Shown here piece by piece: positions 1,064 through 55,317 of a stretch of DNA of 64,000 nt. The DNA is from Erysipelotrichaceae bacterium 66202529. GTDB taxonomy: Bacteria > Bacillota_I > Bacilli_A > Erysipelotrichales > Erysipelotrichaceae. Made by a program: the position numbers and the translations under genes. Below the pieces are notes generated by a model. That model searched no databases. It was not told the DNA's origin and saw only the letters and a program-made list of their open reading frames with translations. Within the stretch, counting starts at the first letter, position 1. Each line of letters starts with the position of its first letter. The stretch is taken from NCBI GenBank assembly GCA_017161075.1, contig CP046174.1, forward strand, positions 1,736,001-1,800,000, given 5' to 3'.

Positions 1064-1090
1064 TGGTGTAAGAGGAGGTTATAAGTCGCT

Positions 1091-2188: not shown

Positions 2189-2201
2189 TGAGGATACAAG
2201 A

Positions 2202-3272: not shown

Positions 3273-3278
3273 TAAATT

Positions 3279-6817: not shown

Positions 6818-6821
6818 GAAA

Positions 6822-7961: not shown

Positions 7962-7977
7962 TGGAAGGAGGGAGAAG

Positions 7978-9006: not shown

Positions 9007-9011
9007 AGGTC

Positions 9012-11508: not shown

Positions 11509-11547
11509 GGAAATGATAGATGATGTTGTCTATACGAGGAATTAATT

Positions 11548-12651: not shown

Positions 12652-13792
12652 GTTGAATAAATGCACAGGTTGTATGGCGTGTGCAGATATGTGTAAAAAA
12701 AGGGCGATAAATGTACACATTGACATAGAAGCATGCAATGCAGAAATAGATGATTCAAAGTGCATTGACTGTGGGGCTTGTAATAGAGTATGCCAAGTAA
12801 ATAATCCTGTGATATTGAAGAAGCCTATAAGTTGGTATCAAGGTTGGTCAAAAGATAAAACAACTAGAGAAAATTGTGCTTCAGGCGGATTTGCAACGGA
12901 AATATCAAGAGCATTTATAAGCCAGGGAGGAATTGTATTTACCTGTGTATTTGAAAAAGGAAGTTTCAAATATTCTGCTTTTGAAACATTAGAAGACTTG
13001 ACAAGGATGGCTGGTTCCAAATATATAAAAAGTAATCCAATTGGTATATATAGGGATATACGAAAAAAGCTGCTGTCCGGAGAGAAAGTATTGTTTATTG
13101 GATTGCCGTGCCATGTTGGTGGTATACAGAACTTTTTGACAGATAAATTGAAGGATAATTTGTATACGATTGATTTAATATGCCATGGCTCTCCAGCACC
13201 ACAATTGTTGAAACTTTTTCTGAAAGAACACCAAATCGAATTGCATTCGATTTCTGCAATTCGATTTCGTCAGAAAGATCATTTTCAAGTTGAGCAGAAA
13301 GAAGAAAACAATTTTAAAAATGTTGGAGCCAAAGGAGTATTGGACTCGTATATGATTGGTTTCCTAGGAGGGGTGTTTTACACGGAAAACTGTTACGAAT
13401 GTAAGTATGCACAGTTGAATCGGGCTTCCGATATCACGATTGGGGATTCGTGGGGAAGCAATTTGTCGATTGTAGAACAGAAAAAAGGTATCTCGCTTTC
13501 CCTATGCCAAACAAAAAAAGGTGAACAGCTTCTAAAAATGTCAAATGTTGAACTGCACACAGTCGACTTGAATTTGGCACAGCAGCATAATCATCAGCTT
13601 GTGTCTCCATCTGTTATTCCAAAGCAACGAAATAAATTTTTAGAAGGAATTCACATGAACAAGAGTTTTGACTCTATGATCTGGAAAACTTGTTTTGTGA
13701 AAAGTGTAAAGCAAGAAATCAAGAAAATACTTATACTGCTAAAATTTTATAGGGGGGGAAAGGCTAAATATAGTGTATCTGTAAAAAAATAA
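12635..13792 (+). CDS. FrhB-like iron-sulfur protein with N-terminal 2[4Fe-4S] ferredoxin
   Basis: A 385-residue protein of the same family as the gene at 6822. The N-terminal ferredoxin domain has CTGCMACADMCKKRAI and CIDCGACNRVCQ. The body has NCASGGFATEISRAF near residue 80, MAGSKYIKSN near 125, VLFIGLPCHVGGIQNFL near 150, and the extra Cys cluster ENCYECKYA near 250. It is somewhat divergent from the other copies (SGG in place of SGA; VGG after the PCH motif). Its ATG is inside the upstream pyruvyl transferase gene, so the two products are probably made together. Function in surface sugar modification is inferred from context only. Confidence 0.82.
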   Translation: MKTVCELNKCTGCMACADMCKKRAINVHIDIEACNAEIDDSKCIDCGACNRVCQVNNPVILKKPISWYQGWSKDKTTRENCASGGFATEISRAFISQGGIVFTCVFEKGSFKYSAFETLEDLTRMAGSKYIKSNPIGIYRDIRKKLLSGEKVLFIGLPCHVGGIQNFLTDKLKDNLYTIDLICHGSPAPQLLKLFLKEHQIELHSISAIRFRQKDHFQVEQKEENNFKNVGAKGVLDSYMIGFLGGVFYTENCYECKYAQLNRASDITIGDSWGSNLSIVEQKKGISLSLCQTKKGEQLLKMSNVELHTVDLNLAQQHNHQLVSPSVIPKQRNKFLEGIHMNKSFDSMIWKTCFVKSVKQEIKKILILLKFYRGGKAKYSVSVKK

Positions 13793-13823
13793 TTGTTTCT
13801 AAATTAAAGGATTTATTTGGATT

Positions 13824-14858
13824 ATGAGTGTAGAGGAACAGGTTATGGCAAAATTGATAGATACAATAGTATGCGCGGGAAGGTTAAAAGACAACTCTGC
13901 CTTAATGAGCAGTTCTTCTGGTGGAGCATTTATTGCCTTTTCTGATATCTTTCTAAAGAATGGAAATCTAGTAATAGCGGCAGTTTACAATTATGAGAAT
14001 CATTTTACAGAATTTCAGATGATTCTGGAGCAAGAATAGAGAAACAAAGCAAAAGGATCAAAGTATATGCAGAGTAAGCCAGGGTAAATTTATAAAGCCG
14101 CAGAAGAATGGCTGAAAGCGCATACGCAGAAGAATTTGCTTTTTGTCGGCATGGGGTGTCCGGCTGATGATTTTCGTAAGTTTGCAGAGATAAAGGGATT
14201 CCGCGAAAGGGTATGGATAATTGATATTATCTGGCACGGATCACCAAGTCCAAGGAAAGAATATGCAGAGTCTATTGAAAAAATACACGGAAAGACTACA
14301 TATCTGATATTTAAAGATAAACGGAATGGTTAGCAATCTACGACAGCATATGTAACAGTTGTCGGACAAGAACATTTGATTAAGGATTATGTAAAAGTTT
14401 TCTACAATTGTTGTGCATTACGCCCGTCCTGCTATGAGTGTCCGTATGCAACTACCGGGAGGAAAACGGATATTACAATCGGAGATTTTTGGCATATTGA
14501 AGAAACTATTCCGGATTTCTATGATAAAAATGGCAATTCACTCTTCTTAATTCACACGGATCAAGGAGAACTCTTTGAATCAGTCAAAGAAAAATTAGAA
14601 TATAGACTAAGTGATACAAAGCAATGCTGGCAGGCAAACTTGGAATCTCCAACCAAAAAGTTGGTGCAGAGAGATGAGTTTTGGAACGATTACCATAAGA
14701 AAGGAGTAGATTTCATTATGAAAAAATATGGAACAACTCCATTAAAGACAAGGATTATGAATAAAATTGTTAAGCTAATTATATCAATCGCGGGAGGGCA
14801 AGCCTTAACTCCTGATTGGACTTATTATGCTGACTACTCCGAGAGGAGGGCAGCATAA
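13824..14858 (+). pseudogene. Dead FrhB-like gene with three in-frame stop codons
   Basis: One reading frame from ATG 13824 to TAA 14858 reads as an FrhB-like protein of about 344 codons. It is interrupted by TAG at 14037, TAA at 14085 and TAG at 14331, with no change of frame. Homology continues through each stop: SSSGGAFIAFSD, then KGSKYMQSK between stops, LLFVGMGCPADDFRKF, IIWHGSPSP, FKDKRNG before the third stop, RPSCYECPYATTGRKTDITI and GDFWHIEE. The third stop sits where relatives have Trp, consistent with TGG to TAG. Like its downstream neighbour it has no ferredoxin domain. The lack of frameshifts suggests decay by point mutation. The last base overlaps the next ATG by 1 nt. Confidence 0.8.
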
Positions 14859-15850
14859 TGAATTGGGAAAAACCTAAAGTATATGCAGTAAAGCATAAGG
14901 ACGAGGAAATCAGAGCAGAATCCAGATCCGGTGGTATTTTCACGGCTTTGTCGGACTTGGCTTTGGAAGATGGTGGTATTGTTTATGGATGTGTTCTGAC
15001 AGAAGAATTTACGGCAGTACATATTCGAGCCGAAAATGTAGCCGAGAGAGATCAAATGAGAGGCTCTAAGTATATCCAAAGCAAATTGGGTAATACATTT
15101 AAGAATGTATATAAAGACCTTGATGCTGGAAAGAGTGTACTGTTTTCTGGAACATCTTGTCAAGTATCTGGATTAAAGCAATTTTTGGGAAAAGAGTACG
15201 GCAACCTTTTTTGTGTGGATATTGTATGTCACGGTGTACCAAGCACTGCTGTGTGGAAAAGCTACTTGCATTGGCAGGAGCAAAAGAATCATGGCAAAGC
15301 AGTCAAAGTGGACTTCAGAAATAAAAAGGATTTTGGCTGGCACGATCATGTGGAAACCATCGGATTTGAGAATGGAAAGTCAACAAATAGCCGGGTGTTC
15401 AGAAATTTATTTTATGGTCACATGATTCTTCGTCCAAGTTGTTATGAGTGTCTTTATAAGTCTGTAATGCATCCGGGTGATATTACAATTGCAGATTACT
15501 GGGGTATCGAGAAAGCTGCCCCAGAGTTGGATGACAATAAGGGCGTATCATTGATTATGGTGAATAACGAAGCGGGCGAAAAAGCATTAGAACGGGTGAA
15601 AGACAAACTGGTTTGGAGACAAACAGAACTAAAAGATAGCATGCAACCTCCGTTGAAAGCGCCATTTCCAAAGCCAGAAAATCGGGAACAATTTTGGAGT
15701 GAGTACCAGAATGAATCGTTTGAATATGTTGCCAAGAGATACGGTGGCATTGGGCTAAAGAATGATGTTAAAATATTCCTGAGAAAGATAAGGAGAAAAA
15801 TCAAAAAGTTGGTGGTTAATTGTGGAAAGAGAAGTACCGGTATTATATAA
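14858..15850 (+). CDS. FrhB-like protein lacking the ferredoxin domain
   Basis: A 330-residue FrhB-family protein beginning directly at the flavin/substrate domain (KPKVYAVKHKDEEIRAESRSGG), about 55 residues shorter at the N-terminus than the copies at 6822 and 12635. Family marks are MRGSKYIQSK near residue 66, VLFSGTSCQVSGLKQFL near 93, DIVCHGVPST near 122, RNLFYGHMILRPSCYECLY near 182 and DITIADYWGIEKA near 207. A separate 66-residue ferredoxin gene overlaps its 3' end (15822), so the two probably supply in trans what the other paralogues carry in one chain. RBS GAGAGGAGG lies just upstream of the ATG. Confidence 0.82.
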   Translation: MNWEKPKVYAVKHKDEEIRAESRSGGIFTALSDLALEDGGIVYGCVLTEEFTAVHIRAENVAERDQMRGSKYIQSKLGNTFKNVYKDLDAGKSVLFSGTSCQVSGLKQFLGKEYGNLFCVDIVCHGVPSTAVWKSYLHWQEQKNHGKAVKVDFRNKKDFGWHDHVETIGFENGKSTNSRVFRNLFYGHMILRPSCYECLYKSVMHPGDITIADYWGIEKAAPELDDNKGVSLIMVNNEAGEKALERVKDKLVWRQTELKDSMQPPLKAPFPKPENREQFWSEYQNESFEYVAKRYGGIGLKNDVKIFLRKIRRKIKKLVVNCGKRSTGII

Positions 15851-41623: not shown

Positions 41624-41652
41624 TTGACTATAACTTCCACAAAAGGTATAAT
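41624..41652 (+). promoter_or_regulatory. Sigma-A-like promoter of the chemosensory operon
   Basis: TTGACT at 41624-41629 and TATAAT at 41647-41652 are spaced exactly 17 nt. This is the only good promoter found upstream of the 15-gene run ending at 54904. Its vegetative rather than sigma-D (motility) character is notable for chemotaxis genes. Confidence 0.75.
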
Positions 41653-41849: not shown

Positions 41850-42314
41850 ATGAGTGAAATGTCTGCAGGAAAGCGGTATGCGCTGGAACTGTACAATGAT
41901 GATATGACTGTTCTGCTTCCCCTGTCCTATATCGGAAGTATTCTGCCTTATAGCGATATGGTATTCACTGATGCACATACGGTAGTATATCAGGAACGAA
42001 GGCTGCCCTGCTTTTATCTGGAGCAGGTGATGTCTCAAACCCGCAAACAGAACGTCTTTTATGCTGTTTTGCTTCAGAATGAGGATATCGAGGCATTTCT
42101 CTTTGTCCAAAAGGTTTGCGGCATACAGGAATTACAGGAGCAGTGCGGTAAGCTTCCTGCATACCTGCAGGCACGGCTCACCTATATACAGGAATGCCAT
42201 CTGCTGGATCAGGAACGCCTGGCATATTTGTTAAACATCAGAGTATTGCTGGAGCAGCATGGATATGATAACGAAAAAGGAGCCACATATGAAACAGGAA
42301 AGCGGACATATTGA
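41850..42314 (+). CDS. Divergent CheW-like protein
   Basis: A 154-residue protein, first gene of the chemosensory operon. The pattern of short strands (YALELYNDDMTVLLPLSYIG, then VVYQERRLPCFYLEQVM and VFYAVLLQNEDIEAFLF) resembles a CheW fold, and its size and company support this, but the sequence is far from CheW consensus. It may link receptors to the c-di-GMP protein whose gene overlaps its end by 26 nt. GGAAGGGAG precedes the ATG. The C-terminal tail (from about residue 125) is charged and of unknown use. Confidence 0.5.
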   Translation: MSEMSAGKRYALELYNDDMTVLLPLSYIGSILPYSDMVFTDAHTVVYQERRLPCFYLEQVMSQTRKQNVFYAVLLQNEDIEAFLFVQKVCGIQELQEQCGKLPAYLQARLTYIQECHLLDQERLAYLLNIRVLLEQHGYDNEKGATYETGKRTY

Positions 42315-44676
42315 TGCACTTACGAATTTTTTCGGATATGCATACGGCAGTAAAAAAATCGATGAGGTGCTGCAGCGCGGGGGCGGCCATGATACGGCCC
42401 TGCTGTTTCAGGTGGATAATTGGGAAGGCTTTTGTGAGCTTGCAGGGGATAAGGCGGCAGATTTTTCGCTGGCCAAGCTCTCCTTTTTACTAACGAAACT
42501 ATTTCATAAAACGGATATCTTCGTCAGAATCGCTCCTGCTGCTTTTTTTGTATACAGCTATGGCTACATGGAATCTGCGGATATTCAAAGAAGATTGCAG
42601 CTGCTGTATACGCATATGAAAACAACAGCTTCTCTGGCACGCTGTTTGAAGGAATGCCGGCTGCATGTCGGTGTCAGTCATGTACAGAAGGAATGCAGCT
42701 TTCAGGAGCTTTTAACGTTAACGCAATACGCCCTTGCACAGGCTGTTGAACAGGATTTGCTGTTTGTCGCTGACTGCCAAGTAAAGGATGCACAGAAGCC
42801 GCTTTCTTACGCCTATCCGCAGGAAATACCGGTGCATGCTTGGGATTATCAGGATATAGATGTTCGCTTTATCATAGATATGACGAATTTTCTGTTTGGC
42901 TGCAACGATCTGCATTTCGGCCTGGAAATGGTGTTATCCTGCATGTGTGAATACTTTGATACCCAGCAGATTTATGTGATGGAGCGTGACAGCAGCGATG
43001 AGGGCTATGCCATCACACACGAATGGCTGTGTCACGATCAGCAGGTGGAAAATGCCAATTTCAGAAGGCTGCCGCTTACCGTAGGTGACCGCCATCAGAA
43101 GCTGTTCGATGAGCATCATCTTTTGGTATGCTCACAGCTGTCGGATATGTTTAAATACGATGTTATGACAGCGTTGCGGGAACGTGTCCGCGGAGCACAG
43201 GCCCTGCTGCAATGTGCCCTTTATGATAATGGCCGCTATATCGGATATCTCAGTATGCTGGATTGTCAAAGTGAGAGGGTATGGACTTCCACAGAAACGG
43301 CGACGTTTTCCACCCTGGTGAAAATCATTGGAACTGCCATTATGCAGCTTCGTTCCCAGCGAATCAGTGAACAGATCGTCCGTCACGATATGCTGACCGG
43401 CGCATGGAATCTGAAGACCTTTACACAAACGGTGGAGCAGTATCTGCAGGAGCATCCATCAGCATGTACGGCTGTCATCACACTGGATATCAAAAATTTT
43501 AAATTCATCAACGCCGAATACGGGTATCCGTATGGGAATGCAATTCTCATCTCCATCTCTCAGATATTGAAGCTATATCTGGATGCACAGGAATATTATG
43601 CGCGTGGGGACGGTGATAATTTTGTCGTCATGCTGCAATATCAGGATATGGAGCAGTTAAAGCTGCGCATCACATCGCTGATTCAGAAAATAGAACGCTG
43701 TGGCGTACATAGTAATCCGCCGGTTACCGTTGTCTGCATGATGGGAATCTATATAAGCAGACATTCAGGAAGAAGCGTATCTGAAATGCTGGACTGTGCC
43801 AATATGGCAAGAAAATCCGTAAAGAATTCTCACAAGAGCGCCTGTGCATTCTTCAATAAGGAGATAGAAGCTCAGCATATGCGCGAGCATTCCCTTACAC
43901 GCATCATGAAGCAGGCCCTGCAGGATGCGGAATTTATCGTCTATTATCAGCCAAAGGTGAATATCAGGACACAGAAATGCGTTGGTCTTGAGGCATTAGT
44001 ACGCTGGAAGCGCGCAGACGGTGAGCTGATTCAGCCCAATGATTTTATTCCCTTGTTTGAAAAAAATAAATTTATCGGGGAGCTGGACATGTATGTGCTG
44101 GAAATGGTATGCCATCAGCTGCAGGAATGGCAGGAACGCAATGCCGTATCATTCCCGATTGCAGTTAATCTATCACGAATCCATCTTGAGGAGGATGCGG
44201 ATATCGTTTACCATATCGTAAATATATGCAACCGGTATCATATTCAGCGTCAGCTCATAGAGCTGGAAATTACAGAAACGGCATTTCTGGAAAATGAAAC
44301 AGTTGTCATACAACGGGCCAAGGAATTAAAGCAGGCAGGCTTTCTTCTGTCCATGGATGATTTTGGTACCGGCTTTTCCTCTCTCAATCTGCTCAGTGAG
44401 CTTCCGGTGGACAGTCTCAAGCTGGATCGTACATTCTTTTTAAAGGAAAGCAATCAGCGGGAGAAAATAATTTTAAGCAATATCGTACACATGGCAGAGG
44501 AGCTGAATATGCATGTCATATCCGAGGGTATTGAAACTGCGCAGCAGGTGGATTTCTTAAAGGAAATCGGCTGTGATATAGCACAGGGGTATTATTATTC
44601 ACGACCGTGTCCGATGGAGCAGCTGCAAAAACGGCTGTGGACAGTCTTTGAAGGGGGCGATTCGCATGTCACATGA
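42289..44676 (+). CDS. GGDEF-GAF-GGDEF-EAL cyclic-di-GMP protein, predicted phosphodiesterase
   Basis: A 795-residue cytoplasmic signalling protein. Order: a degenerate GGDEF domain (about 20-150, with APAAF at the active-site position), a GAF domain (about 200-350), a second degenerate GGDEF domain (about 365-520, RGDGDNF instead of R-GGDEF) and a C-terminal EAL domain (about 540-785). The EAL site looks intact: LEALVRWK, AVNLSR, LEITETAF, MDDFGTGFSS, SLKLDRTF, SEGIET and AQGYYYSRP. So c-di-GMP breakdown is predicted and synthesis is not. ATG 42289 is chosen for AAAAAGG 8 nt upstream. Both degenerate GGDEF domains may bind GTP or act as structural sensors. No membrane helix. Confidence 0.86.
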   Translation: MKQESGHIDALTNFFGYAYGSKKIDEVLQRGGGHDTALLFQVDNWEGFCELAGDKAADFSLAKLSFLLTKLFHKTDIFVRIAPAAFFVYSYGYMESADIQRRLQLLYTHMKTTASLARCLKECRLHVGVSHVQKECSFQELLTLTQYALAQAVEQDLLFVADCQVKDAQKPLSYAYPQEIPVHAWDYQDIDVRFIIDMTNFLFGCNDLHFGLEMVLSCMCEYFDTQQIYVMERDSSDEGYAITHEWLCHDQQVENANFRRLPLTVGDRHQKLFDEHHLLVCSQLSDMFKYDVMTALRERVRGAQALLQCALYDNGRYIGYLSMLDCQSERVWTSTETATFSTLVKIIGTAIMQLRSQRISEQIVRHDMLTGAWNLKTFTQTVEQYLQEHPSACTAVITLDIKNFKFINAEYGYPYGNAILISISQILKLYLDAQEYYARGDGDNFVVMLQYQDMEQLKLRITSLIQKIERCGVHSNPPVTVVCMMGIYISRHSGRSVSEMLDCANMARKSVKNSHKSACAFFNKEIEAQHMREHSLTRIMKQALQDAEFIVYYQPKVNIRTQKCVGLEALVRWKRADGELIQPNDFIPLFEKNKFIGELDMYVLEMVCHQLQEWQERNAVSFPIAVNLSRIHLEEDADIVYHIVNICNRYHIQRQLIELEITETAFLENETVVIQRAKELKQAGFLLSMDDFGTGFSSLNLLSELPVDSLKLDRTFFLKESNQREKIILSNIVHMAEELNMHVISEGIETAQQVDFLKEIGCDIAQGYYYSRPCPMEQLQKRLWTVFEGGDSHVT

Positions 44677-45085
44677 AGCATATCTTGTTTTTTATCAGGG
44701 AACGCATGGGTATGCCATTGAAAACAGCAGGGTTGTCCGTATTCTTACGGCGGGGCATATCTATAAGCTGCCGATAAAGGAAACGATGGTGAGAGGACTC
44801 CTGCAGGTAGATGAGCAGCTGGCTGCCGTCGTAGATGTGGAAGCCTTCCTCTTTCATCGTGAGCCCTTGCAGGAGCGCTATATCATCGTGCTAAAGCATC
44901 AGGGAGAATATGTAGGTGTTTGTGCTGCAAACATTGCGGGGATACAGGAGCTGGACGAAGAACGCTGGCAGCCCTCTACCTGTAAAAAGCTGCCCTATTC
45001 CATAAAGGATGGAGACAGGGAGCTGTACCATCTGCAGCTGGATGGTCTTGAGGGAGGTGATGGCTATGATCAGGCTGAAGGATGA
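44666..45085 (+). CDS. cheW: CheW-like adaptor protein
   Basis: A 139-residue CheW-family adaptor that couples the receptor to CheA. The fold pattern is AYLVFYQGTHGYAIENSRVV, then MVRGLLQVDEQLAAVVDVEAF and YIIVLKHQGEYVGVCAANIAGIQEL, matching the two beta barrels of CheW, including the conserved G-L/I-x-R/QGxxxPVxDL region in altered form. ATG 44666 follows GAAGGGGGCG. The gene overlaps the end of the EAL gene by 11 nt and the start of cheR by 20 nt. Confidence 0.72.
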   Translation: MSHEAYLVFYQGTHGYAIENSRVVRILTAGHIYKLPIKETMVRGLLQVDEQLAAVVDVEAFLFHREPLQERYIIVLKHQGEYVGVCAANIAGIQELDEERWQPSTCKKLPYSIKDGDRELYHLQLDGLEGGDGYDQAEG

Positions 45086-45884
45086 TGAATTTATACAGCT
45101 CTGTGATTTTATGAAAACCAAATACGGAATCAATCTGTCAAAAAAGCGTATTTTGATAGAATACCGCCTGATGAATACATTGAACAACGAGCATATTTCC
45201 AGCTATTCCCAGTATTTGCGGCTATTGAAAAAGGATACTGGCGGGAAGCTGGAGGAGGAGCTCGTCAACCGGCTGACAACGAATTATACCTTCTTTATGC
45301 GGGAGCCGTCGCATTTTCAATTCATTGAAGAACACATCCTGCCAGAAGCTGATATGCATGCACCCTATCATATCTGGATTGCGGGCTGCTCCAGTGGACA
45401 GGAATGCTATACGCTTATCATGCGTCTGGAGGATCAAAGAAAACGGGGTGTAAAGCTTCCTGAAATTACCATAACAGCGACGGATATCAGCACAAAAGCA
45501 TTGCAGGAGGCACAGCAGGGGGAATATCCTGTTGAGGCACTGGATGTACTGCCCAGACACTGGAAGCACGCATACTGTCAGGTGCATGAGGAACGTAAAA
45601 CCTTTACGATCCGTCCGTTTGTGAAAAAGCAGGTGAAATTTGTCCATCACAATCTTATGGAGCCCTATCATCGCAACTACTTTCAGTTGATTTTATGCAG
45701 AAATGTACTAATTTATTTTGATGAGGTATCCCGCTTACGGATATATGAGAATTTCGCATCCAGTCTGAAGAACAGAGGCTATCTGATTCTGGGACATGCG
45801 GAAATGATTACGCAGGGATATCCGTCGTATGAATATCTGAAATCCTCTGTTTACCGTTTAAAGGAAAGACAGCCGTATGGATAA
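45066..45884 (+). CDS. cheR: Chemotaxis protein methyltransferase CheR
   Basis: A 272-residue SAM-dependent enzyme that methylates receptor glutamates. The N-terminal helical domain (1-75) has KYGINLSKKRILIEYRL. The catalytic domain has NRLTTNYTFFMREPSHFQ near residue 72, IWIAGCSSGQECYTL (SAM loop) near 107, TITATDISTKAL near 137 and FQLILCRNVLIYFDE near 208. It has no C-terminal extension for a tethered pentapeptide site. ATG 45066 is placed 8 nt after GGGAGG; 45060 is too close. Its end overlaps cheB by 8 nt. Confidence 0.92.
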   Translation: MIRLKDDEFIQLCDFMKTKYGINLSKKRILIEYRLMNTLNNEHISSYSQYLRLLKKDTGGKLEEELVNRLTTNYTFFMREPSHFQFIEEHILPEADMHAPYHIWIAGCSSGQECYTLIMRLEDQRKRGVKLPEITITATDISTKALQEAQQGEYPVEALDVLPRHWKHAYCQVHEERKTFTIRPFVKKQVKFVHHNLMEPYHRNYFQLILCRNVLIYFDEVSRLRIYENFASSLKNRGYLILGHAEMITQGYPSYEYLKSSVYRLKERQPYG

Positions 45885-46863
45885 GCAGCACATCGTTATA
45901 TATCATATCGATCAAAAGCAGGAAGCAATGGCGGCTTCCATTCTCATGACGGAGCAGGAGCTGATTCTTCATTATGCCCGTACATCTGATGAGGTGCAGG
46001 CATACGGAACGCGCTATAGTATCACCGCGGTGATAATGGAATGTGATACGGCAGATGAACGAATACTGCAGGAGGGGGAAAATGTCAGACTGCTTTCTAT
46101 GCCGGTTTTACTCGTCTGCCATCGCGTAAGTGCAAAGCACTGTCCGCTTACGGTGCTGATCAAGCCAGAATCAGTTACTCCGGCCTTTGCGCGACAGATG
46201 CTCGTACATGTACTCGTTTTGCAGAAGGCAACAAGCAAAGCGAAGGCAGGACAGCAGGGAACAGCGAGCCGTGCAGTCATCGGTATTGGTGCTTCTGCAG
46301 GAGGGCCGCATGCTCTTTGTGAAATACTGCGGCATGTGCCAGAGGATATCTGCGGTATTGTGGTAGTACAGCATATGGCAATAAAACAGCTGCACAGCTT
46401 TATCCGCTATCTGGATGCCCTGTGTGAACCTGCGGTTGTGCTTGCCAGCGAGCATTTGCTGATACGAAACGGAATGGTATATATTGCGGCAGAGGACAGA
46501 CATTTGCAGGTGATAAAAGAAACAGATGGCTTTTATCTGCATCTAAAGCAAGGGCCAAAGGTGAATTTTGTCCGTCCATCCATCGACATCCTGTTTTCCT
46601 CACTTGCCAATCAGGTCAAAGCACAGGCAGCGGGGGTGCTGCTTACCGGTATGGGAACGGATGGGGCACGGGGATTGCTGGAAATGAAGCAGGCGGGTGC
46701 CTTTACAATCATACAGGATGAACCATCCTGTGAGCTGTATGGGATGCCCAGGGAGGCCAAATCCCTGCAGGCCCAATGCGTGGAGCTGCCACTGGACAGG
46801 ATTGCGGATACGCTGTGGAGGCATTATGAAGTCAAGGGGAGAAAAAGAGGTAATGGAACATGA
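45877..46863 (+). CDS. cheB: Protein-glutamate methylesterase CheB with degenerate receiver
   Basis: A 328-residue CheB. The C-terminal methylesterase domain (about 132-325) has the triad Ser140 (GASAGGPHAL), His166 (VVQHM) and Asp262 (GMGTDGARG). The N-terminal 105 residues follow the receiver fold, but the acidic pair is replaced (YHIDQ), and the phospho-acceptor position in TAVIMECD is Glu55 instead of Asp. The Lys in LIKPES is kept. This suggests loss of phosphorylation control, perhaps with Glu acting as a fixed charge. The gene overlaps cheR by 8 nt and cheY by 4 nt. Confidence 0.9.
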   Translation: MDKQHIVIYHIDQKQEAMAASILMTEQELILHYARTSDEVQAYGTRYSITAVIMECDTADERILQEGENVRLLSMPVLLVCHRVSAKHCPLTVLIKPESVTPAFARQMLVHVLVLQKATSKAKAGQQGTASRAVIGIGASAGGPHALCEILRHVPEDICGIVVVQHMAIKQLHSFIRYLDALCEPAVVLASEHLLIRNGMVYIAAEDRHLQVIKETDGFYLHLKQGPKVNFVRPSIDILFSSLANQVKAQAAGVLLTGMGTDGARGLLEMKQAGAFTIIQDEPSCELYGMPREAKSLQAQCVELPLDRIADTLWRHYEVKGRKRGNGT

Positions 46864-47225
46864 GAAAAAAAATCATGATTGTGGATGATGCCATGTTTAT
46901 GCGCAAGCTTATAGAAAAAATGTTGCGAGGTAATGGATATGAGGACATCGTACAGGCTGCGAATGCGGAGGAATGTCTGGCTTTGTACAGACAAGTTCAA
47001 CCGGATATCATTTTGCTGGATATCACGATGCCACAGAAAAACGGACTGGAGGTACTGGACGAGCTGCTGAATGAAAATGCCGATGCATATGTCATCATGT
47101 GCTCTGCACTTGGTCAGGAGGAGCTGATTGCGGACGCCTTGCGTAAGGGAGCGAGGGATTTCATCGTTAAGCCGTTTACAGAAGCACAGCTTCTTCAGGT
47201 TCTTACGGCACTGGGGGATCAATGA
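46860..47225 (+). CDS. cheY: CheY-type response regulator (first copy)
   Basis: A 121-residue single-domain receiver with all catalytic residues: IMIVDDAMFMR (acidic pair), ILLDITMPQKNG (phospho-Asp), IMCSALGQ (Ser) and FIVKPFTEA (Lys). CSALGQ is typical of Firmicutes CheY. Its ATG overlaps the cheB stop (ATGA) and its stop overlaps the cheC start by 4 nt. It forms a cheY-cheC-cheD triplet that is repeated at 50018-51487. Its binding target is unknown, since no flagellar switch gene is in the window. Confidence 0.9.
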   Translation: MRKKIMIVDDAMFMRKLIEKMLRGNGYEDIVQAANAEECLALYRQVQPDIILLDITMPQKNGLEVLDELLNENADAYVIMCSALGQEELIADALRKGARDFIVKPFTEAQLLQVLTALGDQ

Positions 47226-47833
47226 TGGATACAGTTACAAAGCAGCTGCAGGTACAGGATACGATTCAGGAGCTGGGAAATATTGGAATCGGGGCAGCCG
47301 CAACCGCACTATCTGCGCTCCTGCAGCAGCGGGTGCTTACCAATACCTCAAGGCTTGGAGTCATTGACGATGCTTTTTTATTAAATCAGAAGCTGCTGGA
47401 GGATCAGGTCGCAGGGATCCTGTTTCCATATGATAAGGATATACAGGGATATGGACTCTTTATTCTGGAGGAGGAATTCGCCTGTGCTATCTCGAACAGC
47501 TATCTTCACAAAACGGTGAGGTTTGCGGATCTGAATAAGGAATGTATGGCGGTTTTGCAGGAAATCTGCAGTATTATGATTTCCTCCTATCTATCCGCTT
47601 TGGCATCCTTTGCGGATATCAATATTCGTGTACAGCTGCCTGCAGTGTCCATGGACATGAAGGGTTCGATTATCAATGATGGTCTTTCCTTTATTCTGCG
47701 GCAGGAAAAGGAGGCCTTCTGGCTGGATCATGAGCTGAAGCTTTCTGCTTCCGCAAAACCAAGTCATCTGCTGTTTATCATGAATATCGACAGCATTCAA
47801 AATCTGATGGCAAGGCTGGAGGTGGCGATATGA
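47222..47833 (+). CDS. cheC: CheC-like CheY-P phosphatase (first copy, one site altered)
   Basis: A 203-residue CheC-family phosphatase. The first active-site helix is intact (IQELGNIGIGAAATALS with Glu17 and Asn20). In the second (LQEICSIMISSYLSAL) Glu114 remains, but Ser117 stands where Asn is needed, so only one phosphatase centre is expected. CheC of Bacillus and Thermotoga dephosphorylates CheY-P and binds CheD; the cheD gene follows with a 4-nt overlap. Confidence 0.85.
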   Translation: MMDTVTKQLQVQDTIQELGNIGIGAAATALSALLQQRVLTNTSRLGVIDDAFLLNQKLLEDQVAGILFPYDKDIQGYGLFILEEEFACAISNSYLHKTVRFADLNKECMAVLQEICSIMISSYLSALASFADINIRVQLPAVSMDMKGSIINDGLSFILRQEKEAFWLDHELKLSASAKPSHLLFIMNIDSIQNLMARLEVAI

Positions 47834-48303
47834 AGGAGGTCGTGGCACGGCCAGGAGAGCTTGTTATTGCACAGCAGGATGGAATCATCACATCGTATGC
47901 GCTCGGCTCCAGTCTGGGCATCTGCCTCTATGATAAAGAAAAAAGGGTTGGAGGCTATGTCAACAGCATTCTTCCGGAAAATCCCGGAGCACAGCAAAAT
48001 GCAAAATATGTCGGCGATGCGGTTATGATGCTGTATCATGCCATGCAGCGCTATGCCGTTCATGACCACCAGCTGTATGCCAAAATCATCGGAGGGGCAA
48101 AGCTGTTTCTACTGCCGGATGAGGATCGCAGCAAAGAGGTTGGCAGAGCGAATATCCAGGCGGCCTATGCGGCCCTGACAAGGCTGCATATCCCGATTGA
48201 GGGAGAGGATGTCGGAGATATGTACGGCAGAACACTGCATTTTCATATAGAAACCGGAATTGTCTATATCGAAACAGGAAACAGATATGTGTATCATATC
48301 TGA
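47830..48303 (+). CDS. cheD: CheD-like protein, predicted inactive deamidase (first copy)
   Basis: A 157-residue CheD-fold protein. CheD normally deamidates receptor Gln using a Cys-His-Thr triad in GSC and GGxxH. Here the motif reads [14 protein letters not shown], with Ser28 in place of Cys, and [11 protein letters not shown], with Asn45 in place of His, so activity should be lost. The second CheD at 51008 keeps both residues. The remaining fold ([40 protein letters not shown]) is well kept, suggesting it still binds CheC or the receptor. GGAGG lies near its GTG/ATG start region. Confidence 0.87.
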
Positions 48304-48326
48304 AGAAAAGGGAAAGGAAAATCGTA

Positions 48327-50021
48327 ATGAAAGCATTTAAAAATATGAAGGTTACCAGAAAGCTGCTGCTCAGCTTTCTAACTGTAATTCTTCTGTATGT
48401 CATCAGCATATCCGCTACGCTAGTCGGCGTACACAGCATTACCGGCAGCTTTAACGAATTTTATAACAATTCTTATCAGATCGTGAAGGAATCCATGAAT
48501 TTTCGATTGAACCAGTACATCGTTGCCCGCAATGTATTACAGATCATATCGGATCGTGATCTTGCAGTTTCAGCGGAAACACTCAGTGAAACCGAGGCCA
48601 GTATGGAGGTTGTCGATGATTCCATGAAAAATCTGGAGCGTCTATATAAGGATAAGGAGATGCTGAGTGAGCTGAAAACACGCTATGAAAAGCTGGTTAC
48701 ACCGAGAGAAAAGGTTTTAAATCTTCTGAAAACAGAGAAGTTTGATGAAGCGATGAAAATCTATGAAAAGGAATATAATCCCCAGGCGATGGAAACAAGG
48801 ACGTTTTTGCGTCAGATGGAAACGACGACGAAGGAGGAAGCGGATGCATATTATCAGGCGAGTGAGGAAAGCTCGGATACCATGCTGCTTGTTCTTATCG
48901 CGCTTGCAGGTATCACGGTTCTGTTTTCCAGCGCTATCTGGTATCTGATTTCAAAAAGCATCACGCGTCCGATTCAGGAGCTGAAGCGTTCCGCTGAAGA
49001 GCTTGCGGCTGGAAATCTGCATACGGAAATAAGCTATACGGCAGAAAATGAATTGGGCTCACTTGCGGAAAGCATGCGGATGACTATTCAGGCGCTGCGT
49101 GAGTATATGTCGGAAATAGAAAAGAGTATGATGCTGATTGGAAAGGGAAAACTGAACTATCAGACAGAGGTGGAATTCAAAGGGGATTTTATAGCACTGA
49201 AGCGTTCTCTGGATCATATTTCCGTTATGCTGAGTGAGTCTATGATGAAAATCAGCAACAGTGCGGAACAGGTATCCGGCGGGGCTCAGCAGATATCCAA
49301 CGGTGCGCAGATGCTGTCTCAGGGAGCCAGTGAACAGACGGGCTCTATTGAAGAGCTGGCGGCAAATATCAATGAGATTTCGGAAACGGTGAAGCGCAAT
49401 GCGGATGATACCGTGACAGCCAGTGATCTGGCAGATGCCGTGGAACAGGAAATCATGGATAACAGTACACAGATGGAAGCAGTCACGATGGCGATTGCCC
49501 AGATTCGTCAGACCTCTAAGGATATCACCGGTATTGTTAAGGAAATCGAGGATATCGCATTTCAGACAAATCTGCTTTCTTTAAATGCAGCGGTGGAGGC
49601 TGCACGGGCAGGGGATGCCGGGCGCGGTTTCTCGGTGGTTGCCGAAGAAATCCGTAAGCTTGCGACGAAAACAACCGATGCCAGTAAAATAACAGCCCAG
49701 CTGATTCAGAAATCAACAAAATCAGTTGAAGAGGGAAGCGCTCTTATCGATGCCAGTGAGCAGTCCTTAAAGCACATCGTTGACGGAGCGCGGGATGTTG
49801 CTTCTAAAATCGAACAGATTTCGCAATCCAATATACAGCAGGCAAATTTCATTATCCAGATTCGTCAGAGCATTGAACAGATTTCTGATATCGTACAGGG
49901 AAATTCTGCGACCTCGGAGGAAAGTGCGGCCGCAAGTGAGGAGCTCGCAGCGCAGGCACAGATTTTGCGGGAGCTGGTATCCCGATTTGAATTGCTGGAA
50001 AGAGACGGGAAGGTGCTATGA
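48327..50021 (+). CDS. Methyl-accepting chemotaxis protein
   Basis: A 564-residue membrane receptor. Helix 1 spans about 13-35. An external four-helix-bundle sensor (4HB_MCP type) reaches to about 185, helix 2 is at about 188-210, HAMP at about 211-265, and the cytoplasmic signalling domain fills 280-560. The hairpin tip [20 protein letters not shown] is the universal CheA/CheW contact. There is no C-terminal pentapeptide tether. It is the only MCP in the window and sits between the two cheY-cheC-cheD triplets. The ligand is unknown. The stop overlaps the next cheY by 4 nt. Confidence 0.93.
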
Positions 50022-50380
50022 AAAAGAAGGTATTGATCGTTGACGATGCGGCCTTTATGCGTATGAAAATAAAACGGGTGCTGGAGCCGCTGGATTGTGA
50101 GCTTCTGGAGGCCTCCAACGGACAGGAGGGCTGTATGCAATTCACTTCACAGCCGGTGGATCTGGTCATTCTGGATATATCCATGCCAGTTATGAACGGA
50201 TTGGAGGCTTTAAAGGAAATGATGCGGATCAACAATGAGGTACCGGTTGTTATGTGCTCCGCTATCGGACAGGAATCGCAAATCGTTAAGGCGGTACAGT
50301 GCGGTGCCAGAGAGTTTATAATCAAGCCGTTTGCCGATGAGCAGCTTCGTAAGGTAGTTAAGAACATACTGCATCTTTAG
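50018..50380 (+). CDS. cheY: CheY-type response regulator (second copy)
   Basis: A 120-residue receiver with a full active site: [36 protein letters not shown] and FIIKPFADE. It differs from the first CheY over much of its surface while keeping the CSA(I/L)GQE region, as expected of an old duplication. ATGA overlap with the MCP gene. It is followed 11 nt later by its own cheC. Having two CheY proteins may allow two outputs or one output plus a phosphate sink. Confidence 0.9.
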
Positions 50381-50391
50381 GAGGTCAGAGT

Positions 50392-51015
50392 ATGCTGCGT
50401 AAATATTCGGATTTGAATGAAATGGCAAAGGATGCGTTGCGGGAGCTTGGGAATATCGGAACCGGAAATGCTGCCACAGCGTTATCTGCGATGACCAATC
50501 AGGAGATTGATTTGGAAATTCCGGTTATCAGAATCGTTCCGTATCAGGATGCTCCCGGCTTGCTGGGCGGTGCGGAAATCGTGGAGACCGGAATCCTTCT
50601 GGAGGTCAGTCACGGTTTAAAGGGCATTTTCATGTTTTTGCTGAATGAGGATTTTACAGCCCGCATGCTGCAAAAATTGCTCGGCTGTGAGATTGTGGAT
50701 GTCAGAAGGCCGGATGAAATGAGCAAATCCGCAATCTGTGAAACAGGAAACATCATGTGCTGCTCCTATATCAATGCATTATCCCAGATGCTGGATATGC
50801 AAATCCATGTATCTGTACCCTCGGTTTGCTGTGATATGGCAGGCGCGTTACTCAGTGTTCCGATGATTCGTTTTGCCAATCTGGGCGATGAGCTGATGTT
50901 CATCGAAAACCGGTTCTGCTTTGATGATGCGTCCTTTGTATGCCATGTCCTGTTTTTGCCGGAGCTGGATTCCTTGAAGAACATGCTGGATACATTGGGA
51001 CTGTCCTATGAATGA
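50392..51015 (+). CDS. cheC: CheC-like CheY-P phosphatase (second copy, both sites intact)
   Basis: A 207-residue CheC. Both phosphatase helices are intact: LRELGNIGTGNAATALS (Glu18, Asn21) and ICETGNIMCCSYINALS (Glu117, Asn120). AGGAGG precedes the ATG. It overlaps cheD by 8 nt. Compared with the first copy it is the more canonical enzyme and is probably the main phosphatase of the pair. Confidence 0.9.
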   Translation: MLRKYSDLNEMAKDALRELGNIGTGNAATALSAMTNQEIDLEIPVIRIVPYQDAPGLLGGAEIVETGILLEVSHGLKGIFMFLLNEDFTARMLQKLLGCEIVDVRRPDEMSKSAICETGNIMCCSYINALSQMLDMQIHVSVPSVCCDMAGALLSVPMIRFANLGDELMFIENRFCFDDASFVCHVLFLPELDSLKNMLDTLGLSYE

Positions 51016-51487
51016 GGTTATCACGATAGGTATTGCGGATGCTGCCATCGCAAGGCAGCCCTGTATTCTCGTCACCTATGCACTGGGCTCCTGTGTGGGC
51101 GTGTGCCTGTATGAGAAAAAGCGCAGGATCGGCGGTATGGTGCATATTCTGCTGCCCAGCAGAGCGGCGGCAGTCAATCAGGACAATGCCTTTAAATTTG
51201 CGGACAGCGGTGTGAAAAAGCTGTTGGACGGTATGCTTTGCAGGGGAGCGGAGCGTCAGAGCATCATTGCGAAAATTGCAGGGGGAGCAGAAATGTTTCA
51301 GCAGGAAACGTTGAACAGTCAGATTGGAAAGCGCAATGTCGCAGCCGTAAAAGCGGTATTGCGGGAGCTGCGGATACCGCTTGCTGCGGAGCATACCGGA
51401 AGCAACTTCGGACGCACGATCTGGCTGTCGTGTCAGGATGGAAGTCTGAAAGTCAGGACAGTAAACAATGGAATACAAGTTATATAG
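51008..51487 (+). CDS. cheD: CheD receptor deamidase (second copy, active site intact)
   Basis: A 159-residue CheD. The catalytic residues are present: VTYALGSCVGVCLYE with Cys29 and IGGMVHILLP with His46. GGAEMFQQETLN and IGKRNVAAVKAVL are also conserved. It would convert receptor Gln to Glu and bind CheC. Together with the altered copy at 47830 it gives an active/inactive CheD pair in one operon. The start overlaps cheC. Confidence 0.91.
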   Translation: MNEVITIGIADAAIARQPCILVTYALGSCVGVCLYEKKRRIGGMVHILLPSRAAAVNQDNAFKFADSGVKKLLDGMLCRGAERQSIIAKIAGGAEMFQQETLNSQIGKRNVAAVKAVLRELRIPLAAEHTGSNFGRTIWLSCQDGSLKVRTVNNGIQVI

Positions 51488-51504
51488 TAAGGGAGAGCTG
51501 ATGA

Positions 51505-52437
51505 ATGGATACGATACCTAGACTGCTGATTATTGATGACAGTGCCTATATCTGCCATATGATCGAACAAATCTTCAGCAGTGAGAATATAGAGCTGCGT
51601 AAGGCGAATGACGGAGCACATGCACTGCAGGCGGTCACAGCCTTTGCACCGGATCTGATTTTACTGGATGTGGTACTGCCGGATACCGAGGGCTATGAGC
51701 TTTATCATAAAATCAAGGAAATTGATAAAAACAATGCCTCTATAATTTTTCTGACCTCCAGAGATCAGGATGCCGATGTGGTCAAGGGCTTTTCCCTTGG
51801 GGCCTGCGATTATATCAAAAAGCCCTTTCACAATGAAATTTTAAAATCACGTATACAGGTGCATTTACAGGAAAAGCGGATGAAGGATGATTTGCGGCGG
51901 ATGAATGAGGAAATGGCAGACAGTATGCGGAAGCTGAATACCCTGGCCTATCGCGATCCGCTAACGGGGCTGTATAACCGCCGGTATATCGAGGAACAGC
52001 TGAAGCCAAGGTTTCTAAGAGAGCCTTACGATATCGTTTTGTCCATGTGTGATGTGGATAATTTTAAACAGATCAATGATGTATACGGACATGAGATTGG
52101 CGATATGGTACTGATTGGAATCGCTAATATCATGGAGAGCTCTTCCTCCCGAATGACGGCAATCCGCTGGGGCGGGGAGGAATTTCTGCTTGTCCTTTTT
52201 CAGACCGGCTGTGAGGAGGGCTATCAGCTGAATGAACGCATTCGCAAAGATATAGAAAATTTCCCGTTTTATTCCAAGCAGAAAGCATTTCACTGCACGA
52301 TTTCCATAGGTTTGCAGCGATATGATCCGCAGCTGAGCTTTGTGCAGAATGTAGAGCATGCGGATGCAGCGCTGTATAAAGGAAAGCGGAGCGGGAAAAA
52401 CTGCTGTCTTTGGTACGATGGCATACAGGGCAGGTGA
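51505..52437 (+). CDS. Response regulator with GGDEF domain (diguanylate cyclase)
   Basis: A 310-residue REC-GGDEF protein (WspR/PleD style). The receiver (1-120) has LLIIDDSAYI, LILLDVVLPDTEG and YIKKPFHNE. A short coiled linker follows at about 125-155. The cyclase domain has RDPLTGLYNRR, LSMCDVDNFKQINDVYGHEI and the active motif RWGGEEF near residue 225. The RxxD inhibitory site that should lie five residues before the GGEEF motif is not present, so product feedback is probably weak. It likely takes phosphate from the CheA of this operon and makes c-di-GMP. Confidence 0.9.
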   Translation: MDTIPRLLIIDDSAYICHMIEQIFSSENIELRKANDGAHALQAVTAFAPDLILLDVVLPDTEGYELYHKIKEIDKNNASIIFLTSRDQDADVVKGFSLGACDYIKKPFHNEILKSRIQVHLQEKRMKDDLRRMNEEMADSMRKLNTLAYRDPLTGLYNRRYIEEQLKPRFLREPYDIVLSMCDVDNFKQINDVYGHEIGDMVLIGIANIMESSSSRMTAIRWGGEEFLLVLFQTGCEEGYQLNERIRKDIENFPFYSKQKAFHCTISIGLQRYDPQLSFVQNVEHADAALYKGKRSGKNCCLWYDGIQGR

Positions 52438-52442
52438 ATATC

Positions 52443-54473
52443 ATGCGTATATTTGATGAAGATCAAAGAGCGATGCTGGAGGTATATCTGTATGAAAGCA
52501 ATTCGCTGTTTGACCAGCTGGATACGATTTTAATGCGGACAGAAAGCAGGGCTGTTTTTACCTCAGAGGATATTCACTCTGTTTTCCGTATCATGCATAC
52601 GACAAAAAGCTCCTCCTCTATGATGAATCTGCAGGCGATTGCAGACCTGATGCATGCGGTTGAGGATTTGTTTTCCTTATTTCGTGAGGATGCAGCGCTT
52701 ATGGCTGGCCACGAGCAGCAGACCTTTGCACTTCTTTACGCCGTTTCTGATTATATGCATGAGCAGCTCAGAGTAATGCAGGAGGAAGACTATCAGCCGG
52801 GCGATACATCCTCCTATGTGCAACAGACTAAGCAGCTCATCAGTACCATACAGAATGCGAAACCGGCTATTGCAGAAATTGCAGAGGAACCCATGCATAC
52901 AGCTGCTTCATTGAAAGAATTGTCAGCATCTGATTCTAATCAAAACGAGGAGGCTATAACGCAGGCGTATATCCGGCTGCGTTTTGAGAAGGATTCCAGA
53001 ATGGAAAATATCCGGGCCTATATGATAGCTTCACAGATTCGTGGAAAATGCCGCAGTCTTTCCTATTATCCCCAGGAGCTGGAACAGGATGCAGGCACTG
53101 CGAAGTTCATAAAGGAAAAAGGCTTTTATCTTCATATAGAGGCTGCAGAGCTGCAGAGTGTTTTAAAGCTGCTGCACAGAGCGCTGTTTGTGGAATCCTG
53201 CGAAATCATAGAAAAAGAGGAATACGACTTGAATTGCGGACAGCCGCAAAGGAAGGAAGCAGGGGCTGTGAATCCGCATACGGCAGAGAGTACCTCGATT
53301 ATTTCTGTCCAGGTGGAAAAGCTCAACCAGCTGCAAAACCTGACGGGAGAGCTGATGATTGCGGAATCTGCCATGGTGAGCAGGCTGGAGGAGCTGGGGC
53401 AAAAGGAATTGCTGTCCCTGTTTGAGAACAGCTTTCACAAGGTGCTGCTCGATATGGAAGAAATTGTCATGGCCGCAAGACTTGTCCCGATTTCACAAAT
53501 CGTTGCTAAGCTGCATCGTGTTGTGCGTGATATCGCTCATAAGGAGCATAAGGATGTATCCTTTCAGATTTTCGGAGAGGACATCGAGCTGGATAAGGAA
53601 ATTGTCGATAACCTGTTTGAGCCGCTGATGCATCTGTTGCGAAATGCAGTTGATCATGGTATCGAAGCTGAAGCACAGCGTATTGCGGCACATAAGCCGA
53701 AAACGGGAAGCATTACCATGACAGTGGAAAATGTCAACGGAGAAATCGTTATTCATGTACGTGATGACGGGCAGGGAATCGATGTGGAACAAATTCGGAA
53801 AAAGGCACAGGAAAAGAAGCTGCTGAAGGAAGGTCACAGCTATACACGGGAGGAGCTGCTGAACCTGATTCTTTTACCGGGCTTCTCTACCAACCAAACA
53901 GCCAATGAATTTTCCGGCAGGGGAGTCGGTATGGATGTTGTGAAAACTATGGTTGATCATTTTAAGGGACATGTAAGCATACAGAGTACGCTGCATAGCG
54001 GAACCGTATTCTCTCTGCATTTTCCATTGACGCTAACCGTGATTGAAAGCATGCTGTTTCGCTGCAGCGCAAATACCTTTTCCATCCCGGCACATCATGT
54101 CCTTCATTTCTTTCCTTATCAAGAGGATGATACGCATTTAAAAACAGAGAACGGTCATAGTGTCTATGTTTATGAGGATAAGGTATTGCCGATTCTTCCC
54201 TTATCGAGGTTCTTTCATATGGAGCCATCTTCTGCACCAGGGAATATCCTTATGTATGTGCGCTCCTCTACACGGGAGGCCTGTCTTTTGGTTGACAGGA
54301 TCATCGGTTATCAGCATATCGTGGATAAGCCGCTTCCTATGCTTCTGCATACACAGTTTAAAAAGGGCAGTGGGATATCCGGCTGCAGTCTGCTGGGAGA
54401 TGGCAGCATCTGTCTGACCCTGAATACGGAATATTTATTGGATTGTCTGTTATATGAGAGGTGTATGTCATGA
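52443..54473 (+). CDS. cheA: Chemotaxis histidine kinase CheA
   Basis: A 676-residue CheA. HPt domain at 1-105, with the phospho-His at about residue 52 in FRIMHTTKSSSSMM (Ser replaces the usual Gly after Lys). A putative P2 region lies near 170-260, dimerisation helices at about 290-350 (VEKLNQLQNLTGELMIAESA), ATPase domain with LMHLLRNAVDHGIEA, RDDGQGID and FSGRGVGMDVV at about 395-505, and a CheW-like domain at the C-terminus. ATG 52443 is chosen because the longer frame has no ribosome site. Stop overlaps cheW by 4 nt. It is the only CheA seen. Confidence 0.93.
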   Translation: MRIFDEDQRAMLEVYLYESNSLFDQLDTILMRTESRAVFTSEDIHSVFRIMHTTKSSSSMMNLQAIADLMHAVEDLFSLFREDAALMAGHEQQTFALLYAVSDYMHEQLRVMQEEDYQPGDTSSYVQQTKQLISTIQNAKPAIAEIAEEPMHTAASLKELSASDSNQNEEAITQAYIRLRFEKDSRMENIRAYMIASQIRGKCRSLSYYPQELEQDAGTAKFIKEKGFYLHIEAAELQSVLKLLHRALFVESCEIIEKEEYDLNCGQPQRKEAGAVNPHTAESTSIISVQVEKLNQLQNLTGELMIAESAMVSRLEELGQKELLSLFENSFHKVLLDMEEIVMAARLVPISQIVAKLHRVVRDIAHKEHKDVSFQIFGEDIELDKEIVDNLFEPLMHLLRNAVDHGIEAEAQRIAAHKPKTGSITMTVENVNGEIVIHVRDDGQGIDVEQIRKKAQEKKLLKEGHSYTREELLNLILLPGFSTNQTANEFSGRGVGMDVVKTMVDHFKGHVSIQSTLHSGTVFSLHFPLTLTVIESMLFRCSANTFSIPAHHVLHFFPYQEDDTHLKTENGHSVYVYEDKVLPILPLSRFFHMEPSSAPGNILMYVRSSTREACLLVDRIIGYQHIVDKPLPMLLHTQFKKGSGISGCSLLGDGSICLTLNTEYLLDCLLYERCMS

Positions 54474-54904
54474 GTGATCTGTTATGCTTTCATGCCTTTG
54501 AGAATATATACGGCATTCCTGTCCATATCATACAGGAAACCTTTGATGAACAAAGGGTTACGCCGGTACCGTGTATGCATCCTGCATTTGCTGGACTCTG
54601 CAATTATAAGGGAATCGTTTATCCTGTTTTGTCCTTTTCCCGTCTCTGTAACAAAAGGATGCCATTAAAAAGGGCATGTATGCTGCTGCTTCATGTGGAT
54701 AAATATCAGCTGATTCTGCGTATGAACGATGTACCGTTTTTTGTGTATGAGGCAAAGCTGACAAAAAGCATCCCGTATGATGGCGGAAGCGAATATCTGA
54801 AAATTGAAATGCTGTGTCAGCAGGAGGACAAAAGCATATATGTTTTAAATATGAAAGAAATTCTCGATTATCTGGCAGCGAATATGCTGCATATTCCTGA
54901 ATAA
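54470..54904 (+). CDS. cheW: CheW-like adaptor protein
   Basis: A 144-residue CheW-like protein and last gene of the operon. It reads LCFHAFENIYGIPVHIIQET, then HPAFAGLCNYKGIVYPVLSF near residue 42, the closest match here to the CheW G-x-x-x-x-RGxxxPVxDL pattern. ATG 54470 overlaps the cheA stop (ATGA), with GAGAGGTG upstream. With the other two CheW-like proteins it gives three possible adaptors for a single CheA. Confidence 0.78.
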   Translation: MSDLLCFHAFENIYGIPVHIIQETFDEQRVTPVPCMHPAFAGLCNYKGIVYPVLSFSRLCNKRMPLKRACMLLLHVDKYQLILRMNDVPFFVYEAKLTKSIPYDGGSEYLKIEMLCQQEDKSIYVLNMKEILDYLAANMLHIPE

Positions 54905-55275: not shown

Positions 55276-55302
55276 TTAGCACTCAAGTGTTGACAGTGCT
55301 AA
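55276..55302 (+). promoter_or_regulatory. CIRCE operator 1 overlapping the clpB promoter
   Basis: TTAGCACTC, 9 nt, then CAGTGCTAA: the HrcA-binding CIRCE element with one mismatch in the right arm. Its right arm overlaps the -35 box TTGACA (55290-55295). TATAAT follows at 55312-55317 with 16-nt spacing, so bound HrcA would cover the promoter. Confidence 0.88.
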
Positions 55303-55317
55303 AAACTGTGCTATAAT
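55290..55317 (+). promoter_or_regulatory. Sigma-A promoter of clpB
   Basis: Perfect TTGACA at 55290-55295 and TATAAT at 55312-55317, spacer 16 nt. The transcript start is expected near 55324, inside the second CIRCE element. Confidence 0.85.

Follow-up and report, generated by a model that had tools for sequence, protein, structure and literature searches.

The analysed window, a stretch of 64,000 nucleotides from Erysipelotrichaceae bacterium 66202529 (assembly GCA_017161075.1, contig CP046174.1, positions 1,736,001 to 1,800,000 of the forward strand; G+C content 42.5%), contains a chemotaxis (che) operon at about 41850-54904. According to the open reading frames (ORFs) and Pfam, it consists of tightly packed, co-directional genes in the order cheW, GGDEF-EAL, cheW, cheR, cheB, cheY1, cheC1, cheD1, MCP, cheY2, cheC2, cheD2, receiver-GGDEF, cheA, cheW, where MCP is the single gene of a methyl-accepting chemotaxis protein. 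The set cheY-cheC-cheD is thus present twice, at 46860-48303 and 50018-51487, on either side of the MCP gene, exactly as described in an earlier note on this DNA. Overlaps of 4 bases were found at cheB/cheY1, cheY1/cheC1, cheC1/cheD1 and MCP/cheY2, and one of 8 bases at cheC2/cheD2. The paralogues share 44% (CheY1/CheY2), 27% (CheC1/CheC2) and 37% (CheD1/CheD2) identity.

The catalytic triad of CheD is represented by Cys27, His44 and Thr21 in Thermotoga maritima numbering (PMC7022378). Alignment to T. maritima CheD (2f9z_C, in which the printed chain numbering is 2 higher) placed Ser28, Asn45 and Ser22 of CheD1 and Cys29, His46 and Thr23 of CheD2 at these positions. The assignments of the catalytic Cys and His columns made in the earlier note were therefore exact in both proteins. 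Ser22 is not itself a loss, since NTAN1 has Ser at the position equivalent to Thr21 (PMC7022378) and the Thr column is Ser in 29 of the 121 CheD2-type sequences compared, namely CheD2 and the best 120 of its 1302 homologues. The description of CheD1 as otherwise well kept agrees with its predicted fold, which is that of CheD, with the constraint seen throughout its clade, and with a match to PF03975 of 78.4 bits against a curated cut-off of 25, which makes it a member of the CheD family. The NCBIfam cut-offs do not set CheD1 apart from CheD2, as the equivalog threshold of 240 bits exceeds the scores of both (88.7 at best for CheD1, 157.6 for CheD2). From these replacements, CheD1 is very probably devoid of deamidase activity.

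The replacement of the catalytic Cys was found in all listed homologues of CheD1. The window protein and its 22 listed homologues (49-99% identity) make up 23 sequences, in all of which the Cys column is occupied by Ser, whereas Cys is present in 121/121 CheD2-type sequences. The His column contains Asn (17), His (5) or Gln (1) in the CheD1 sequences and His in all 121 others. In the CheD tree, the 23 sequences form one clade with a support of 100 and a stem of 2.4 changes per column; the tree was built without the four key columns and by a quick method, so that caution regarding long branches applies. The Cys column requires one change on this tree and the His column four over all sequences. 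The Ser at the Cys column is accordingly more than chance and belongs to one clade rather than to a local mutation.

The lost catalytic residues and the long stem branch would also be expected if cheD1 were a functionless duplicate in decay. This explanation is highly improbable in view of the single origin, the length of 156-171 amino acids in 22/22 homologues, and the residues P8, L29, S46, V61 and L92, each fixed in 23/23 sequences. Protein divergence was used in place of the ratio of non-synonymous to synonymous substitution rates: on contigs inferred to be shared, mean identity is 56% for CheD1 and 60% for CheD2, and this about equal rate argues against decay.

The clade of CheD1 includes a protein of Thomasclavelia sp. 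(Coprobacillaceae, Erysipelotrichales), and that of its partner CheC1 a protein of Candidatus Stoquefichus sp. SB1. A scan of genome contigs with CheD1 confirmed two loci, both distant (35 and 43% identity), and none of the 29 pattern matches in a scan of viral contigs was confirmed as a relative. A tblastn search of plasmids gave 42 records, all below 60% identity, among them that of B. velezensis, which served as the numbering reference; a DNA pattern search for the His motif of CheD2 found cheD2 itself and nothing further. Inspection by eye showed the catalytic Cys and His in one CheD of Bacillus and in two CheDs from archaea. In a genome of Candidatus Altiarchaeota, two CheD genes lie on the same contig at a distance of about 14 kb, and each retains Cys and His as judged by eye.

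CheC1 is also altered. It has 18 close homologues (49-97% identity), the next matches being at 32% or lower, and together these 19 proteins form a clade with support 100/100 and a stem of 3.26. In site 1, the residues D13, E17 and N20 are kept and the motif Pro is lost; in site 2, E114 is kept and the Asn is replaced by Ser117. The same holds for 19/19 members, with Ser (15) or Gly (4) in place of the site 2 Asn, which is kept in 12 of 13 other CheCs and replaced by Thr in one. The two Glu-x2-Asn sites that mark CheC phosphatases are therefore not both found in CheC1. Since proteins of the CheC family act by inserting the catalytic Asn, together with an acidic side chain, into the receiver (PMC3035606), site 1 is probably the only phosphatase site left. 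Compared with CheC of T. maritima (1XKR, 2F9Z) and B. subtilis, CheC1 shares the fold, the Asp, Glu and Asn of site 1 and the CheD-binding Asp149, but differs in the absence of the site 2 Asn and the site 1 Pro and in a Lys/Arg two residues past Asp149. CheD1 thus probably belongs to a conserved branch of pseudoenzymes within the CheD family, alongside which CheC1 has diverged as well. A precomputed Pfam domain is absent from 8 of the 18 close homologues of CheC1, so that this protein is partly invisible to standard annotation.

With one site left in CheC1, the role of CheD1 might lie on the output side only, as a non-catalytic activator of a half-degenerate CheC1 that speeds CheY1-P hydrolysis without contact with receptors. 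The five-fold higher activity of B. subtilis CheC with CheD (PMC3513319) would be in keeping with this, as would the complete Asp, Glu and Asn of site 1, which make some phosphatase activity plausible. Nevertheless, the site 2 Asn and the site 1 Pro are each missing in 19/19 proteins, the catalytic Asn being the residue inserted into the receiver (PMC3035606), and an output role alone leaves the CheD-like substrate side of CheD1 unexplained; we regard this alternative as rather unlikely.

Binding can be separated from catalysis in B. subtilis. Its CheD-F102E performs normal deamidation, binds CheC and receptors poorly and resembles a cheD null in proline taxis, and CheC-D149K retains phosphatase activity, binds CheD poorly and is null-like on swarm plates and, in capillary assays, intermediate between the null and the wild type (PMC3513319). 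In alignments to Bacillus CheD and CheC, Met101-Phe102 of CheD corresponds to Leu92-Phe93 of CheD1, and Asp149 of CheC to Asp145 of CheC1; the equivalent of Phe102 is kept in 23/23 CheD1 and that of Asp149 in 19/19 CheC1. Proteins of the CheD fold can still bind once their Cys is replaced by Ser: NTAN1 C75S, made to hold peptides, binds its substrate (PMC7022378), and the inactive BLF1 C94S binds its target protein (PMC8960835). CheD1 is similar to CheD of T. maritima (2F9Z) and B. subtilis in fold, length, the cheC neighbour, Phe102 and the core GGA motif, but different in the absence of the catalytic Cys and His and in the change of Met101 to Leu. Catalytic loss, a single origin and kept interface residues support the proposal of the earlier note that CheD1 is a pseudoenzyme retained for binding, and we consider it probable that CheD1 is a pseudo-deamidase in which binding of CheC1 and receptors is the selected function.

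Several observations weigh against this reading. Met101 is replaced by Leu in 23/23 CheD1 compared with 3/121 CheD2-type sequences, and B. subtilis CheD with M101A/E has little deamidase activity (PMC3513319). Two residues past the binding Asp, Lys/Arg is present in 19/19 CheC1, whereas Ala is present in 10/13 other CheCs, so that the fit between CheC1 and CheD1 may differ, and CheC1, rather than CheC2, is only the presumed partner of CheD1. Other residues would suit a CheD1 that is still an enzyme, with Ser28 as the nucleophile, a relocated cysteine or another histidine. Thus, Cys is found at the Thr column in 8/23 sequences and one residue before the nucleophile position (27) in 3 others; Ser28 occurs together with His at the catalytic column in 5/23; His139 is present in 20/23 compared with 12/121 outside the clade, and His137 in 15/23 compared with 0/121, both being present in the window protein. 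However, 12 of the 23 sequences, including that of the window, which also has no His at 45, contain no Cys at 22, 27 or 28, and BLF1 C94S, of the same fold, is inactive (PMC8960835). Another Cys/His pair, the possibility raised against the proposal in the earlier note, is judged unlikely from column counts: C32, the sole Cys shared by all members of the clade, is not specific to it, occurring in 116/121 CheD2-type sequences and in T. maritima, and no invariant His column was found among the 23 sequences. Together with the four changes at the His column, this makes retained enzyme activity improbable.

Under the binding reading, the CheD1 cycle is likely to be the B. subtilis binding cycle minus its deamidation step, although we infer each of its binding and regulatory steps. 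CheD1 would dock on CheC1 and on receptor helices, where Cys-dependent deamidation would not be possible, and the receptor-bound form would tune CheA. CheY1-P would then accumulate and bind CheC1, and CheC1 with CheY1-P would bind CheD1 more tightly, pulling it off the receptors and resetting CheA. The neighbouring CheY2-CheC2-CheD2 set would retain deamidation and two phosphatase sites. All three components of B. subtilis adaptation by CheC, CheD and CheY-P, in which binding is held to be more important than catalysis (PMC3513319), are adjacent in this operon. In B. subtilis, the CheD that binds is itself an active deamidase, while here binding and catalysis appear to be split over two paralogues.

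The methylesterase CheB of the operon has no recognisable receiver. In its N-terminal part (45877-46287), Pfam gave no receiver match even at an E-value limit of 10, the lone weak match being a decarboxylase domain (E 0.027), and the alignments to CheB models of NCBIfam begin no earlier than residue 116; this part may be a degenerate receiver. CheY-CheC-CheD would consequently remain as feedback. A wider proposal can be put forward tentatively, that CheY1-CheC1-CheD1 is a deamidation-free feedback module parallel to CheY2-CheC2-CheD2. Sitting on receptor sites without turnover, like laboratory Cys-to-Ser mutants of this fold, CheD1 would be a natural substrate trap shielding receptor modification sites from CheD2, CheR and CheB until removed by CheC1/CheY1-P. 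As CheB lacks a recognisable receiver, the principal feedback would then be this loop in place of CheB phosphorylation, and the output would be cyclic di-GMP (c-di-GMP) rather than a flagellar motor.

In B. subtilis, CheC and CheD are enzymes, yet their activities seem to matter little to chemotaxis, a paradox noted by the authors, whose mutants remove binding and keep activity; a CheD without catalytic activity is not among the variants tested in that work (PMC3513319). CheD1 appears to be the natural converse, with binding and no activity. Where a lineage retains a dead CheD next to a live one, the two functions are separated and the binding-only model becomes open to direct testing, and a match to the CheD family is no guarantee of deamidase activity. 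Among the titles and abstract openings of the matches listed in literature searches, none concerned a CheD without its Cys, which does not demonstrate absence from print.

The features of the operon are collected in the table. A consensus promoter-like site was found ahead of the operon (41624-41652) and another beyond its end (55290-55317), and these are only suggestive because 34 such sites were found compared with 26.0 (standard deviation 4.5) in shuffles. The single-MCP operon has three separate cheW genes (41850, 44669, 54461).

Table. Genes and key codons of the che operon in the window (starts of some genes inferred, as indicated).
Feature	Position	Strand	Evidence
cheW-like, first operon gene	41850..42314	+	Pfam CheW, E 9.4e-06
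GGDEF-EAL protein, GGDEF motif degenerate, EAL motif intact (by eye)	42259..44676	+	Pfam
cheW (start inferred)	44669..45085	+	Pfam
cheR (start inferred)	45054..45884	+	Pfam
cheB methylesterase, N-terminal part without detected receiver domain	45877..46863	+	Pfam, NCBIfam
cheY1, single receiver domain, start overlaps cheB stop	46860..47225	+	Pfam Response_reg, E 1.6e-28
cheC1, site 1 kept, site 2 broken, CheD-binding Asp145 kept	47222..47833	+	Pfam, alignment
cheD1, probable pseudo-deamidase	47830..48303	+	Pfam, alignment
cheD1 codon 28, AGT (Ser), nucleophile position; TGT in cheD2	47911..47913	+	
cheD1 codon 45, AAC (Asn), catalytic His position; CAT in cheD2	47962..47964	+	
MCP: 4HB sensor, HAMP, signalling domain	48327..50021	+	Pfam
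cheY2	50018..50380	+	Pfam Response_reg, E 2e-29
cheC2, canonical CheC with two phosphatase sites	50392..51015	+	Pfam, alignment to T. maritima and Bacillus CheC
cheD2, canonical CheD, Thr23/Cys29/His46, Met-Phe kept	51008..51487	+	Pfam, alignment
Response regulator-GGDEF fusion, GGEEF motif intact (by eye)	51505..52437	+	Pfam
cheA (start inferred; domains scanned on 52428-54473)	52443..54473	+	Pfam Hpt, P2, H-kinase_dim, HATPase_c, CheW
cheW, last operon gene	54461..54904	+	Pfam

The MCP contains two sites with the strict modification motif, at residues 528 and 535, both Glu-Glu, and one near-motif site, GASEQTGS (residues 333-340), which contains Gln. The latter makes a substrate for CheD2 in this receptor plausible.

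Two c-di-GMP enzymes, the GGDEF-EAL protein and the receiver-GGDEF protein, are encoded inside the operon, the latter being the likely c-di-GMP output. Its architecture resembles that of WspR (PMC3447774). No flagellar or pilus family was matched by Pfam in the 60 ORFs of the window that were scanned. The similarity to Wsp-type alternative-function pathways, in architecture only, comprises che genes, several cheW and a response regulator with receiver and GGDEF domains; unlike these pathways, the operon contains two copies each of cheC, cheD and cheY as well as a GGDEF-EAL gene. About 26 kb upstream lies a polysaccharide cluster (2-15850) with genes of glycosyltransferases, Wzy-like and flippase-like proteins, three pyruvyl transferases and F420-hydrogenase-beta-like proteins, and its connection to c-di-GMP is only a thought.

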